The position numbers were made by a program, and so were the translations under genes. The notes below the pieces were generated by a model. That model did no database searches and was not told the DNA's origin. It saw nothing but the letters and a program-made list of their open reading frames with translations. A DNA stretch of 64,000 bases, taken from contig NZ_CP007139.1 in NCBI RefSeq assembly GCF_000724625.1, forward strand, positions 2,418,001 to 2,482,000, read 5' to 3'. Below are positions 20,449 to 63,704 of the stretch, in pieces (position 1 is the first letter of the stretch; each line of letters begins with the position of its first letter). The DNA comes from Fimbriimonas ginsengisoli Gsoil 348. Lineage in GTDB: Bacteria > Armatimonadota > Fimbriimonadia > Fimbriimonadales > Fimbriimonadaceae.

Positions 20449-21810
20449 ATGCTTGACATTCGACCGGTTGCTCTACAGTTGGCCGAACTCGATTTGAGCC
20501 CGCTCCGAAATACCATTGAACGGCATGGATTCTGGGAGCAAGGTCAAGGGTCACTGACGTGGAGGGATAGCCTTGAGCTTTATGATGGACTGAGAGAGCC
20601 ACTTGGAGTGCTTGCTTCGTCTGACATCTTCAAATCTATTCCACAGGTTTGGGCGGAGCGAATCAGCAGTGTCTCGCAGGCCCTATTAACAACCGTTAAT
20701 AACGTCCAGAACATAGGTCCAAGCGGGGCTGATCCTTGGAATTTTGGCGGTCATCTGAGCAACTTACATGAAGTCTTAGTTCTAATGGGGCTCGTGACGC
20801 CTTCTGGTGTTATCCCTAAGAGTGGTGGCCTGACCTTAAGGAAAAGGGCGCAGGTGGAGGACCACGAACGATCCATTTATGCTGCTAAAGTCGAACTCGA
20901 AGAAATGCTTGCCCAGGCTCGGTTAAATCTAAATGAGCTTGCCGCTGTTGAGCAACGAGCATCGCAAACAATTGAAGTTACGAATCAGCACCGAGCGCGG
21001 GCTGAACTGGCAGCCACGCAAGCACTTGAACTCTCGGAGGAGGCAAGGGAACTTACAGCCTCGATCCACTCTTTGCGCACATCCATTGAATCTTCCCGAG
21101 AACTTGCCGAGAAAGCAGCAGATGCCGCTGCGTCAAGTCGTCAGCTTCTATCTGCGACCGTAGCCGAAGTTGCCGCGCTTACCGAAAAGCTAGACACAAT
21201 GATCGTGACCTCCAATGAGAACGTTAAGAGTGATCGCGAATGGATCGCCGAGCGCAACAAAACTCTGGCGGCCTTAACAAAACAGATCGAGGATCGGTTG
21301 GTTAAGGCGACAAATGCCGGCTTATTCCATGCATTCGACACGAGGCGGAAAGGTCTAGCATTAGCTGTTTGGCTTCCCTTTGCTGTTGGATTTCTGTCGC
21401 TGATCGTTGGTGGGAGTTTGGCTTTCCGCCTGTTAAATGAGAGCGGCACAATTACAACGCTCTCAACAGCAAAAGCCCTGGTTACAGCACCTCTCTTTTA
21501 CGCGGCCTTCTTTGCGTTACGGCAGTTCACACGAGAGCGCAGGCTTCAAGAGGAATACGCTTTCCGTTCTGCGATCTCAGTATCACTTGAGCCTTATCGC
21601 CAACTAATCGTAGATCATTGCGACATGGAGACACCTGAGGGGCAAAAACTGCACAATGAATTCATCGTTGGGCAGATGAATCGAATATTTGATTCCCCTA
21701 CCGACCGTGTTTTCGGGGAGCCTAGGTTTAGGCAAGTGAGCGACACGAAGATCATAAGCAGTTTCTTAGATGAAGTAAAGAAAATGTCTGAGATTGTAAA
21801 ATTGAAGTAG
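20449..21810 (+). CDS. Coiled-coil membrane protein of unknown function
   Basis: The protein has 453 residues. Residues 130-290 are rich in Ala, Glu, Leu and Gln with heptad spacing, indicating a long coiled coil. Two hydrophobic segments follow at about 308-330 and 348-365, and a cytosolic tail ends in FLDEVKKMSEIVKLK. No family is recognised. The gene and its flanks are visibly AT-richer than neighbours, with many TTA, ATA and AAA codons, suggesting recent acquisition. TACTAT lies about ten bases before the ATG, so the leader may be very short. Confidence 0.7.
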   Translation: MLDIRPVALQLAELDLSPLRNTIERHGFWEQGQGSLTWRDSLELYDGLREPLGVLASSDIFKSIPQVWAERISSVSQALLTTVNNVQNIGPSGADPWNFGGHLSNLHEVLVLMGLVTPSGVIPKSGGLTLRKRAQVEDHERSIYAAKVELEEMLAQARLNLNELAAVEQRASQTIEVTNQHRARAELAATQALELSEEARELTASIHSLRTSIESSRELAEKAADAAASSRQLLSATVAEVAALTEKLDTMIVTSNENVKSDREWIAERNKTLAALTKQIEDRLVKATNAGLFHAFDTRRKGLALAVWLPFAVGFLSLIVGGSLAFRLLNESGTITTLSTAKALVTAPLFYAAFFALRQFTRERRLQEEYAFRSAISVSLEPYRQLIVDHCDMETPEGQKLHNEFIVGQMNRIFDSPTDRVFGEPRFRQVSDTKIISSFLDEVKKMSEIVKLK

Positions 21811-26662: not shown

Positions 26663-27529
26663 ATGCTCGGCTATCACGCAAACATGGCAGTCGCGGTTGC
26701 TCATGCAACTCCGTACCTGGCGGGAGACGATGAGGCATTAAAGGAATTCACCTATGCCGCCGGCCGACTGGGCGTGCGCCAAGAGTTATATACCGTCCTC
26801 TTCAACCGGTCGGGTGTGCTTGCCAAAAATCGGCGGCAATGGTTCCAGTACCTGCGGGATCACGGCGGAAAGCGTGCCTTCTTAGCCGTTTTGCCGAAGC
26901 AAGCGGATTACTGGGAGATCCCCTTCAACCACGCCTTTACCGGAAATCACAATTGGGCGGTTTGCATCGAAACCGAAGATCGACCCAATTATTGGCACCT
27001 TCGCATTAATTCTTCCTATTCGGCCAATCCGTCCGAAGAACAGGTCGAGACCGGTCGGGAAATTCCCAGTCCAAGGCCGGGAGAAGAGAGGATCGAGCTC
27101 CACTGGGGATTGTTCCTCGCGGACCGCGAACACGTCTTTGTGAGGGGGAAGCTTGCCGCTTGCGAGCAGCAATTGAATACGTTGTTGACTGACCTTATTC
27201 TGTTTTGCGCCGAAAACGAATTGGAGGAATGGCGTAGCGTATTCGTTCGGTCATTGTCGATATTGGAATCCAAAATCGACCTCCCCATCATGGAAATGGG
27301 TCGCTACTTTCCATCGCGGGGATACAGCCCTCGCGTACAAAGACTTCTCTATTCGGCATTGGGCGCGGATGTTCTGGGTGGAATGGACTCGTGGAACGAT
27401 CAGTATTTTCAAAACCAGGAGGTTAAGGCACGTTTTGATGCCCTTTCGTCGCGCATCGGGCCGGCCGTCGTGGAAGCCATCGTAGTTGCGTTGGATCAAT
27501 TCGAACCGTCGTCGGGTGTCACTCTCTAA
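26663..27529 (+). CDS. Hypothetical protein
   Basis: A 288-residue soluble protein with no signal peptide or membrane helix. No motif is recognised. It has a conserved-looking middle (WEIPFNHAFTGNHNWAVCIETEDRPNYWHLRINSS) and a helical C-terminal half. The start is nine bases after the NanE-ROK stop, so the two may share an mRNA, though its function need not be related. Codon use is slightly more AT-rich than neighbours. Confidence 0.7.
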   Translation: MLGYHANMAVAVAHATPYLAGDDEALKEFTYAAGRLGVRQELYTVLFNRSGVLAKNRRQWFQYLRDHGGKRAFLAVLPKQADYWEIPFNHAFTGNHNWAVCIETEDRPNYWHLRINSSYSANPSEEQVETGREIPSPRPGEERIELHWGLFLADREHVFVRGKLAACEQQLNTLLTDLILFCAENELEEWRSVFVRSLSILESKIDLPIMEMGRYFPSRGYSPRVQRLLYSALGADVLGGMDSWNDQYFQNQEVKARFDALSSRIGPAVVEAIVVALDQFEPSSGVTL

Positions 27530-62690: not shown

Positions 62691-63521
62691 TCAGGACGGT
62701 CGGCTTTTTCGCTTCAGTCTCGTTACCTCGTGTGAGTGTCTTTGGGCGGAAATCGTTCGCCTCAAGGTCGAAGGGTCACAAACTTCGAACAGTTCGTTTC
62801 GCCAGTCCACGGTGGGTATCGGGTCGTCAACTTTTATGCCGTGAAAGTAGCGGTGACCTCGCCAGATGACGCCAAATGATCGAGCGGAACCTATCCGATA
62901 GATGCCGACCAACTGGGGCGGCCCCTCGCTGTAGGGGTCTCGCTTTTGATGAAGTAAAGCGTCGCAGAGAGCGGAGTAAATTGCCCGGGTAGTGTTTGCA
63001 GCAGAAGTTTCGCGCCACTTGGCCAATGCCTTCACAATGAAAGTGCTTCCGCTACCGTCAATGAATATGATCTCGGAAGTAGAAGGCAGAGGTAGCTCAA
63101 TCCAAGTCGCACCCCCAGGAACGCATATCATCTGGAAAACTCGAAAACGTTTGTCCGCTTCCCGAGTGGCCATCACGATTCGTATCTCGTCCTCGCCAAA
63201 TGTTGGAGCGGAAACCATCGCATTTGCCGCGAATTTGCAGGCCGCCTCGACCCGGGCTTCTGTTGTCAAACCTTGCGCATCTATGGCTTCGAGATAGCTT
63301 TGGACCCGCGGAATGATCTGCGCCGCGAAGAATCCATGGCCGACGCACCCGAAGATCCACGTCGTCTGTGGTGATGCATAGGCTTTCTGTCCGCAATCCC
63401 ACTTTGTTCTCGGCGCTTTTCCGTCCGTGCTCTTGACAAGCGACACTCGACTATCTGTGGCAATGTAAATGGACGCAGTTCCTCTACTGTCGACTCCGGC
63501 CCAGCAAACAAGCGAACTCAT
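62691..63521 (-). CDS. Proteasome-like Ntn-hydrolase family protein
   Basis: A 276-residue soluble protein. The N-terminus SSLVCWAGVDSRGTASIYIA then TDSRVS, followed by GQKAYASPQTTWIFGCVGHG, has the strand pattern of the proteasome beta-type fold, with Ser2 a possible N-terminal nucleophile after Met removal and Asp/Lys-like partners downstream. No other proteasome gene is near. Codon use is slightly more AT-rich than surroundings. It is convergent with the deacetylase fusion. No function is known; a standalone Ntn amidohydrolase or peptidase is plausible. Confidence 0.6.
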   Translation of the reverse strand: MSSLVCWAGVDSRGTASIYIATDSRVSLVKSTDGKAPRTKWDCGQKAYASPQTTWIFGCVGHGFFAAQIIPRVQSYLEAIDAQGLTTEARVEAACKFAANAMVSAPTFGEDEIRIVMATREADKRFRVFQMICVPGGATWIELPLPSTSEIIFIDGSGSTFIVKALAKWRETSAANTTRAIYSALCDALLHQKRDPYSEGPPQLVGIYRIGSARSFGVIWRGHRYFHGIKVDDPIPTVDWRNELFEVCDPSTLRRTISAQRHSHEVTRLKRKSRPS

Positions 63522-63592
63522 TTCGCTGCTATACTATCAGTAAGTTGCGGTGGGAACTGCCGATCGCAACTCCGCCCGTAAGGTCGAGGTGA

Positions 63593-63624
63593 CCCGCCCT
63601 ATCGACGAAAGTTGATAGGGCGGG
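63593..63624. promoter_or_regulatory. Strong hairpin with GAAA tetraloop upstream of ABC ATPase
   Basis: CCCGCCCTATCGAC-GAAA-GTTGATAGGGCGGG forms a 14-base stem (one G-T pair) capped by a GNRA-type loop. It has no T-run on either side. It lies 80 bases before the ATPase start and 70 bases after the Ntn-hydrolase start codon, in the divergent gap. Confidence 0.6.
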
Positions 63625-63704
63625 GCGGTTTGTGGTTCGGCTCAGGCTGGCGACTCTCCTATAACTGCAACCCAGACGGCATCCGCGGTGTAATCTACTC
63701 CCAC

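Follow-up and report, generated by a model that had tools for sequence, protein, structure and literature searches.

Fuchs, Alva and Lupas (2021; PMC8665760) catalogued 22 proteasome-like subfamilies, for which no informative gene context and no RNA were reported. Among these, PMI-2 to PMI-6 have an insertion between helices H3 and H4, while connectase, which is a ligase, lacks helices H1 and H2 and carries two inserted helices between S3 and S4 (PMC8665760). Here we describe a proteasome-beta-like hydrolase of Fimbriimonas ginsengisoli, encoded in the window (the whole 64,000-nucleotide stretch of DNA analysed, part of a single-contig genome of 5.23 Mb). It has in common with the 20S proteasome beta subunits, HslV, Anbu and BPH the fold (Z 16-18), an N-terminal Thr/Ser, Asp17, Lys33 and Gly47 and, mostly, the equivalents of Ser129 and Asp166. 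It differs from them in that its family is unmatched by PF00227, that the proteins start with Met-Thr or Met-Ser, the Thr/Ser standing directly behind the start Met without a propeptide in every relative (n = 51), that a C-terminal EWRN..FE motif of its own is conserved, and that the gene is accompanied by a dedicated RNA gene and by neither an ATPase nor an alpha subunit. Like the catalogued subfamilies it is a divergent bacterial proteasome homologue without known partners, and its broad spread across bacteria resembles that of PMI-4 or PMI-2 (PMC8665760). By description only, it is set apart from PMI-2 to PMI-6, as our model has in place of their insertion just an 8-residue loop between helices 159-169 and 178-190, and from connectase, as the model has helices at 63-83 and 87-104 and none at 23-46. 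All of the catalogued subfamilies were compared by their published description, and the hydrolase may belong to PMI-1, WPH, FC, GPH or another of the remaining ones.

Structured RNAs situated beside a single mobile gene, as is the case here, are familiar from the OMEGA (IscB/TnpB) RNAs and HEARO; unlike those systems, the present one has no nuclease and no guide region, and its RNA has no fixed place at the 3' end. In ToxIN and other type III toxin-antitoxin systems, an endoribonuclease protein is paired with a tandem-repeat RNA (PMC8860590). Our locus, as judged from the genes, likewise joins a single protein and a single structured RNA in a mobile two-part unit, but its protein is a proteasome-like hydrolase and its RNA is present in a single copy per gene, on a varying strand and side. 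No RNA-linked proteasome homologue was found in open-access full texts and, in the literature searched, the pairing of protein and RNA is new for proteasome relatives. It is this pairing on which the claim of a new kind rests, since the hydrolase by itself would extend a known group by a new member.

The hydrolase gene and its predicted product

The full-length homologues and conserved catalytic positions of the hydrolase ORF (Table 1) indicate that it is a genuine gene. An earlier note, made from the sequence, had called it AT-richer than its neighbours, and this is so: its GC content is 54.2%, 2.6 sd lower than the mean of 61.4% (sd 2.8) for 47 long ORFs of the window, and its GC3 is 0.567 against a mean of 0.742 (sd 0.075). 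Two other window ORFs, 20449-21810 and 26663-27529, have GC contents (0.50 and 0.54, respectively) that are clearly below the rest of the window. The hydrolase gene also contains a 26-nt direct repeat, 85% identical (62870-62895 and 63194-63219). The gap that separates it from the divergent RNA gene would need to hold both promoters; no sigma-70 consensus was found in it. A similar spacer of 45 nt is present at the homologue in the same genus (L002/L007).

Table 1. Coordinates of the hydrolase gene, its RNA gene and related features. Positions are those of the window unless a genome or locus is given.
Feature	Position	Strand	Remarks
CDS, proteasome-beta-like Ntn hydrolase, 276 aa	62691..63521	-	ATG start; supported by ORF, homologues and fold
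Start codon of hydrolase	63519-63521	-	
Ser2 codon	63516-63518	-	predicted nucleophile; aligned to Thr1
Asp23	63453-63455	-	= Asp17
Lys46	63384-63386	-	= Lys33
Gly61	63339-63341	-	= Gly47
Ser157	63051-63053	-	= Ser129
Asp195	62937-62939	-	= Asp166
Ser198	62928-62930	-	= Ser169
Gap between hydrolase gene and divergent RNA gene, 44 nt	63522..63565	.	spacer
Putatively transcribed structured RNA gene, short three-helix form without helix P2, with conserved 5' GCAACUCC	63566..63628	+	44 nt upstream of hydrolase start codon
RNA, P1	63572-63577/63623-63628	+	
RNA, P3	63582-63585/63591-63594	+	loop GAGGU
RNA, P4	63595-63606/63611-63622	+	
20S proteasome beta	G000:C1:1549899-1550345		outside window; ..HG/TTVLSL processing site, beside Dop/PafA-like ORF
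20S proteasome alpha	G000:C1:3471154-3471465		outside window
tRNA-like gene	L003:12844-12913	opposite to hydrolase gene	downstream; without junction RNA
tRNA-like gene	L005:12778-12851	opposite to hydrolase gene	downstream; without junction RNA
tRNA-like gene	L034:10851-10918	same as hydrolase gene	downstream
tRNA-like gene	L039:3795-3862	opposite to hydrolase gene	downstream
tRNA-like gene	L042:8040-8107	opposite to hydrolase gene	downstream
tRNA-like gene	L056:10916-10982	opposite to hydrolase gene	downstream
tRNA-like gene	L169 near 1429	opposite to hydrolase gene	3 nt past stop; no detectable junction RNA

The earlier note had also proposed a proteasome beta fold with Ser2 as a possible nucleophile, and structure prediction and a fold search gave just this, an Ntn-type fold with Ser2 at the active site. 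The AlphaFold2 model, built on a 51-row alignment, has a pLDDT of 92.5 and a pTM of 0.91. A Foldseek search of the PDB returned 632 chains at E<=0.001 and, among the matches listed, all were proteasome subunits. The best structural matches were 20S beta subunits; VIA-align gave Z values of 17.9 to mycobacterial proteasome beta and 16.6 to Anbu, and residue 2 of the model superposes on Thr1 of 20S proteasome beta. A profile-profile alignment, which was weak (E 0.009) and in which two of the reference sequences were textbook ones, matched D23, K46 and G61 of the hydrolase to proteasome beta positions 17, 33 and 47. Position 2 is Thr or Ser in all 51 sequences of the family alignment, Ser being the exception (Thr in 48, Ser in 3), and three active-site equivalents are fully or nearly invariant, D17 in 50/51 and K33 and G47 in 51/51 each; S129 is S/T in 50/51 and D166 is present in 45/51. 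The N-terminus of the hydrolase reads MSSLVCWAGVDSRG..IATDSRVS. Methionine aminopeptidase has an established preference for Met-Ser and Met-Thr and, as the nucleophile immediately follows the start Met, this enzyme could remove Met1 and thereby expose the Ser/Thr nucleophile.

Sequence searches with the single hydrolase sequence against Pfam, NCBIfam, PADLOC, PHROGs and the PDB gave nothing credible, and neither PF00227 nor any other Pfam model credibly matched any of the 51 family members. Only three relatives matched phrog_1040, "peptidase HslV family" (best E 6e-5). The suggestion that this is a little-studied family agrees with the fact that no Pfam, NCBIfam or PADLOC model recognises the hydrolase. 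Based on the model, the hydrolase belongs by structure to the proteasome-like group, with the proteasome-beta alpha-beta-beta-alpha fold, and we infer that it is an N-terminal-nucleophile enzyme, either a peptidase or a ligase. The statement that it has no Hsl, 20S or Anbu partners holds within the window but not for the genome, which has two PF00227 (Proteasome) genes, at 1.55 Mb and 3.47 Mb, both unlinked to the hydrolase gene. These 20S proteasome alpha and beta genes are core genes of the bacterial family, being present in 58/61 genomes. In another Armatimonadota genome we observed a more distant proteasome-like subfamily (L064, G260:C244; MTLVMAWLNKKDSPTSLNIAADS..) without the RNA element.

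Spread and mobility of the homologues

Full-length homologues, 23-43% identical, were identified in about 52 genomes or contigs from about 15 phyla and on plasmids of Pseudomonas, Agrobacterium and Arcobacter; the distribution is patchy, with the hydrolase in <1% of genomes. The search of genome contigs began from one conserved peptide, PQL..Y, and because this was the search pattern, its conservation is partly ascertainment. The nearest homologue in a titled record is from an uncultured Armatimonadetes member whose genome is placed in the same genus. Another species of the genus has a homologue that is 43-45% identical and at a different genome position, and the flanking genes in the genus are not syntenic around the hydrolase.

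Neither an all-against-all comparison of flanking ORFs nor Pfam and PADLOC scans of 160 neighbours revealed a conserved protein partner. The description of the hydrolase as standalone is therefore correct with respect to proteins, but a dedicated structured RNA gene adjoins the hydrolase gene. The most recurrent neighbours are integrases, with resolvases also among the few recurrent ones, and some neighbours are defence genes, which occur singly and without a consistent defence neighbourhood. A HEPN/Toprim gene adjoining the Arcobacter homologue was considered as a partner and rejected, as the association is not conserved. In a mobile, possibly defence-rich region of the Agrobacterium plasmid pAt1, paired genes for a multiubiquitin-domain protein and ThiF are situated, together with a SIR2-family gene (L004:18326-20586), 6-11 kb from the homologue.

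Homologue pairs whose proteins are 73-88% identical have no common flanking genes, and the DNA similarity in such pairs begins no more than about 16 nt from the ATG and stops roughly 30 to 170 nt past the stop codon, so that it covers the gene and the RNA only. The exceptions with some common flank are two gammaproteobacterial loci and two Acetobacteraceae loci. In one gammaproteobacterial clade, a conserved gene of 265-271 aa with no assigned function (L019:10859-11656 and L059:10850-11665; 72% identical) lies behind the hydrolase-RNA unit. The hydrolases of L054 and L055, from two genera of Acetobacteraceae, are 98.5% identical, apparently as the result of a recent transfer, and have a common upstream gene of 776 aa whose N-terminus is like that of a P-loop ATPase; neither the junction RNA described below nor a tRNA-like RNA was found at these two loci, which are possibly a variant without RNA.

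A predicted structured RNA beside the hydrolase gene

In most homologues from Bacteroidota, Bacillota and Planctomycetota, the stop codon is followed by GGCAACUCCC and then by hairpins P2, P3 (loop GAGGU) and P4, closed by P1. Throughout, this junction RNA is 60-115 nt in length and has a conserved 5' GCAACUCC, then a three- or four-helix junction. No match above the gathering score was found in Rfam 15, and a known Rfam identity was rejected on this basis. The short form in the window has a fold z of -6.5 and, compared with the RNA of the same-genus homologue, keeps 22/22 pairs with five compensatory (double) changes, a comparison that is independent of the covariance models. An alignment of 45 sequences has standard pairs in 90.5% of its pair cells and changes on both sides in 21/23 pairs; the covariation score was 0.616, versus <=0.182 for slid controls and 0.176 for shuffles, although this score is favoured by the fitting of the alignment to the structure.

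The regularity of the association was assessed with two covariance models, R1 (18 RNA copies) and R2 (39 sequences), the E-values of these home-made models being rough. Over 1.0 Mb, R1 gave 39 matches at E<=1, every one beside a homologue. Of these, 21 were outside the training set, each with about a 2% chance of such a position, and 15 of the 21 were upstream of the hydrolase gene, mostly on the opposite strand. Further copies were found with R2 at L009, L014, L031, L034, L057 and L019 and, with filters off, at the same-genus L002 (22.7 bits, E 2.5e-4). On the window, whose copy was not used in its training, R2 scored 21.1 bits (E 8.1e-5 in 1.6 kb), the next best match having 4.5 bits. The junction RNA is thus beside 47/54 readable homologue loci, a count in which some weak single matches were included because of their position beside the gene (for example L019, E 0.024, and L031, E 0.07). 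At L010, L045 and L060 there are at best degenerate copies, as judged by eye.

In 24 carrier genomes the RNA occurs solely beside the hydrolase gene. An Oscillospiraceae genome (G290) that carries a pair of hydrolase genes (L038 and L050) has two copies of the RNA element, one at each gene. No RNA apart from the gene was found at E<=0.01 in 295 other Bacteroidota or in 101 Armatimonadota, although in the latter the window's short form itself falls below that stricter filter. One match at E<=0.1 was away from a homologue (L004, 19.2 bits, E 0.097). A pattern scan of viral contigs yielded 37 stretches, of which R2 scored four at E<=0.1, the best being L147 with 30.7 bits. None of those four contigs carries a hydrolase homologue, and the pattern preselects chance matches. 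Overall, the association of the RNA with the hydrolase gene is far too regular to be incidental.

Possible roles of the RNA

The fold, the active-site conservation, the association, the covariation, the mobility as a gene-plus-RNA unit and the lack of a fixed protein partner are computed and not inferred. The role of the RNA is a matter of interpretation, to which a second RNA, resembling a tRNA, is relevant. This was found at seven homologues, 3 to about 30 nt past the stop codon or just behind the junction RNA, and one of the seven (L169) was identified by protein profile only, independently of any RNA. The T-loop of a normal tRNA is UUCRA, with a nearly invariant U at position 55, whereas that of all seven tRNA-like RNAs is UGCRA, with G at this position. 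Their anticodon loops are odd, and the acceptor stem is short in several of them. When 914 kb were scanned with a regular expression, five G55-type tRNA-like genes were detected, all beside a hydrolase gene, and four ordinary U55 tRNAs, none of which was directly behind one. In three of the seven carriers (L003, L005 and L169) the junction RNA is absent.

These RNAs could be carriers or substrates, with the enzyme acting on the tRNA-like RNA, or taking acyl groups from it, as an RNA-dependent ligase or peptidyl-RNA hydrolase with connectase-like chemistry. Such RNA-dependent acyl transfer is the most interesting rival explanation, and consistent with it are the seven tRNA-like genes with G55, the cloverleaf-like overall shape of the junction RNA, whose P2 loop is often CCACCA, and the fact that one proteasome-like protein, connectase, is a ligase (PMC8665760). 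However, we consider it unlikely, given the short acceptor stems, the lack of a 3' CCA in the junction RNA and the fact that such chemistry has no known case.

Alternatively, the element could be a folded DNA site (attC-like or a hairpin end) that moves single-gene cassettes, with the hydrolase as mere cargo. The movement of gene and element as a unit without common flanks, and the integrases and resolvases among the few recurrent neighbours, would suit such a site, and compensatory changes would be equally expected of it. A mobility site would carry varied cargo, though, and the element accompanies solely the hydrolase gene in the genomes searched; it is found on either strand and on either side of the gene, and the tRNA-like RNA accompanies some members and replaces the element in three. 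In addition, an intrinsic terminator follows 7/46 copies, as compared with 2.4% of control stretches, the terminator-bearing copies including both actinobacterial ones, which diverge from the hydrolase gene. Like these terminators, the tRNA-like second RNA points to an RNA and not a DNA site, and we regard the latter as quite unlikely. An integron gene cassette was rejected, since attC is always 3' of its gene and on the same strand.

We regard it as very unlikely that the element serves the hydrolase gene or one of its neighbours in cis, as a regulatory leader or a 3' UTR. While the window element is upstream of, and on the same strand as, an ABC transporter gene starting downstream, and the element directly follows the hydrolase stop codon in Bacteroidota and Bacillota, the neighbouring genes differ among homologues; a riboswitch or leader of the window's ABC operon was rejected because homologues have other genes at that place. 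The RNA may lie behind the hydrolase gene on the gene's own strand or in front of it on either strand, and on the protein tree its position or strand has switched at least five times while proximity is kept. In about 19 loci the RNA is upstream on the opposite strand and so lies outside the hydrolase mRNA. This shifting of side and strand speaks against a leader or UTR; it favours a product acting in trans. It is highly improbable that the hydrolase serves housekeeping or quality control as an ordinary ATP-independent peptidase, in the manner of BPH or Anbu, and that the RNA is incidental, as the canonical fold and active site might suggest, given its rarity and patchiness, its presence on plasmids, its unstable context and the regularity of the RNA association.

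We therefore think that the RNA is probably a functional, trans-acting partner. To our reading as a whole, a mobile module in which a proteasome-beta-like Ntn hydrolase is controlled or assembled by a dedicated, separately placed structured RNA, we assign a probability of roughly 45%. The locus would then encode a mobile bacterial ribonucleoprotein module of a new class, in which a proteasome-like protease or ligase is under the control of a structured RNA of its own (junction or tRNA-like). The hydrolase would be the first proteasome relative with an RNA partner, and possibly a defence protease that senses RNA. In such a module the RNA gene would be transcribed separately, in the window divergently from the hydrolase, and the RNA would bind the hydrolase in trans and govern its activity or assembly. 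By analogy with type III toxin-antitoxin systems, we prefer the view that the RNA either restrains the hydrolase or assembles it: most likely, it would restrain the enzyme until titrated or destroyed, for example by an invading phage or by tRNA/RNA cleavage, and the outcome would be a module resembling toxin-antitoxin or abortive-defence systems but with a protease in place of the RNase. The assignment of the RNA as an inhibitor or sensor is tentative, and a role in activation or as a scaffold would agree just as well with the findings.

The divergent relatives of the proteasome are a recognised puzzle, with 22 subfamilies that lack a contextual clue (PMC8665760), and for the family described here that clue is an RNA. 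The finding adds a new class of structured RNA, together with a tRNA-like RNA whose T-loop has G at position 55. If a protease with a dedicated RNA is indeed what these genes encode, it would represent a system of a new kind, whether for toxin-antitoxin function, for defence or for RNA sensing.
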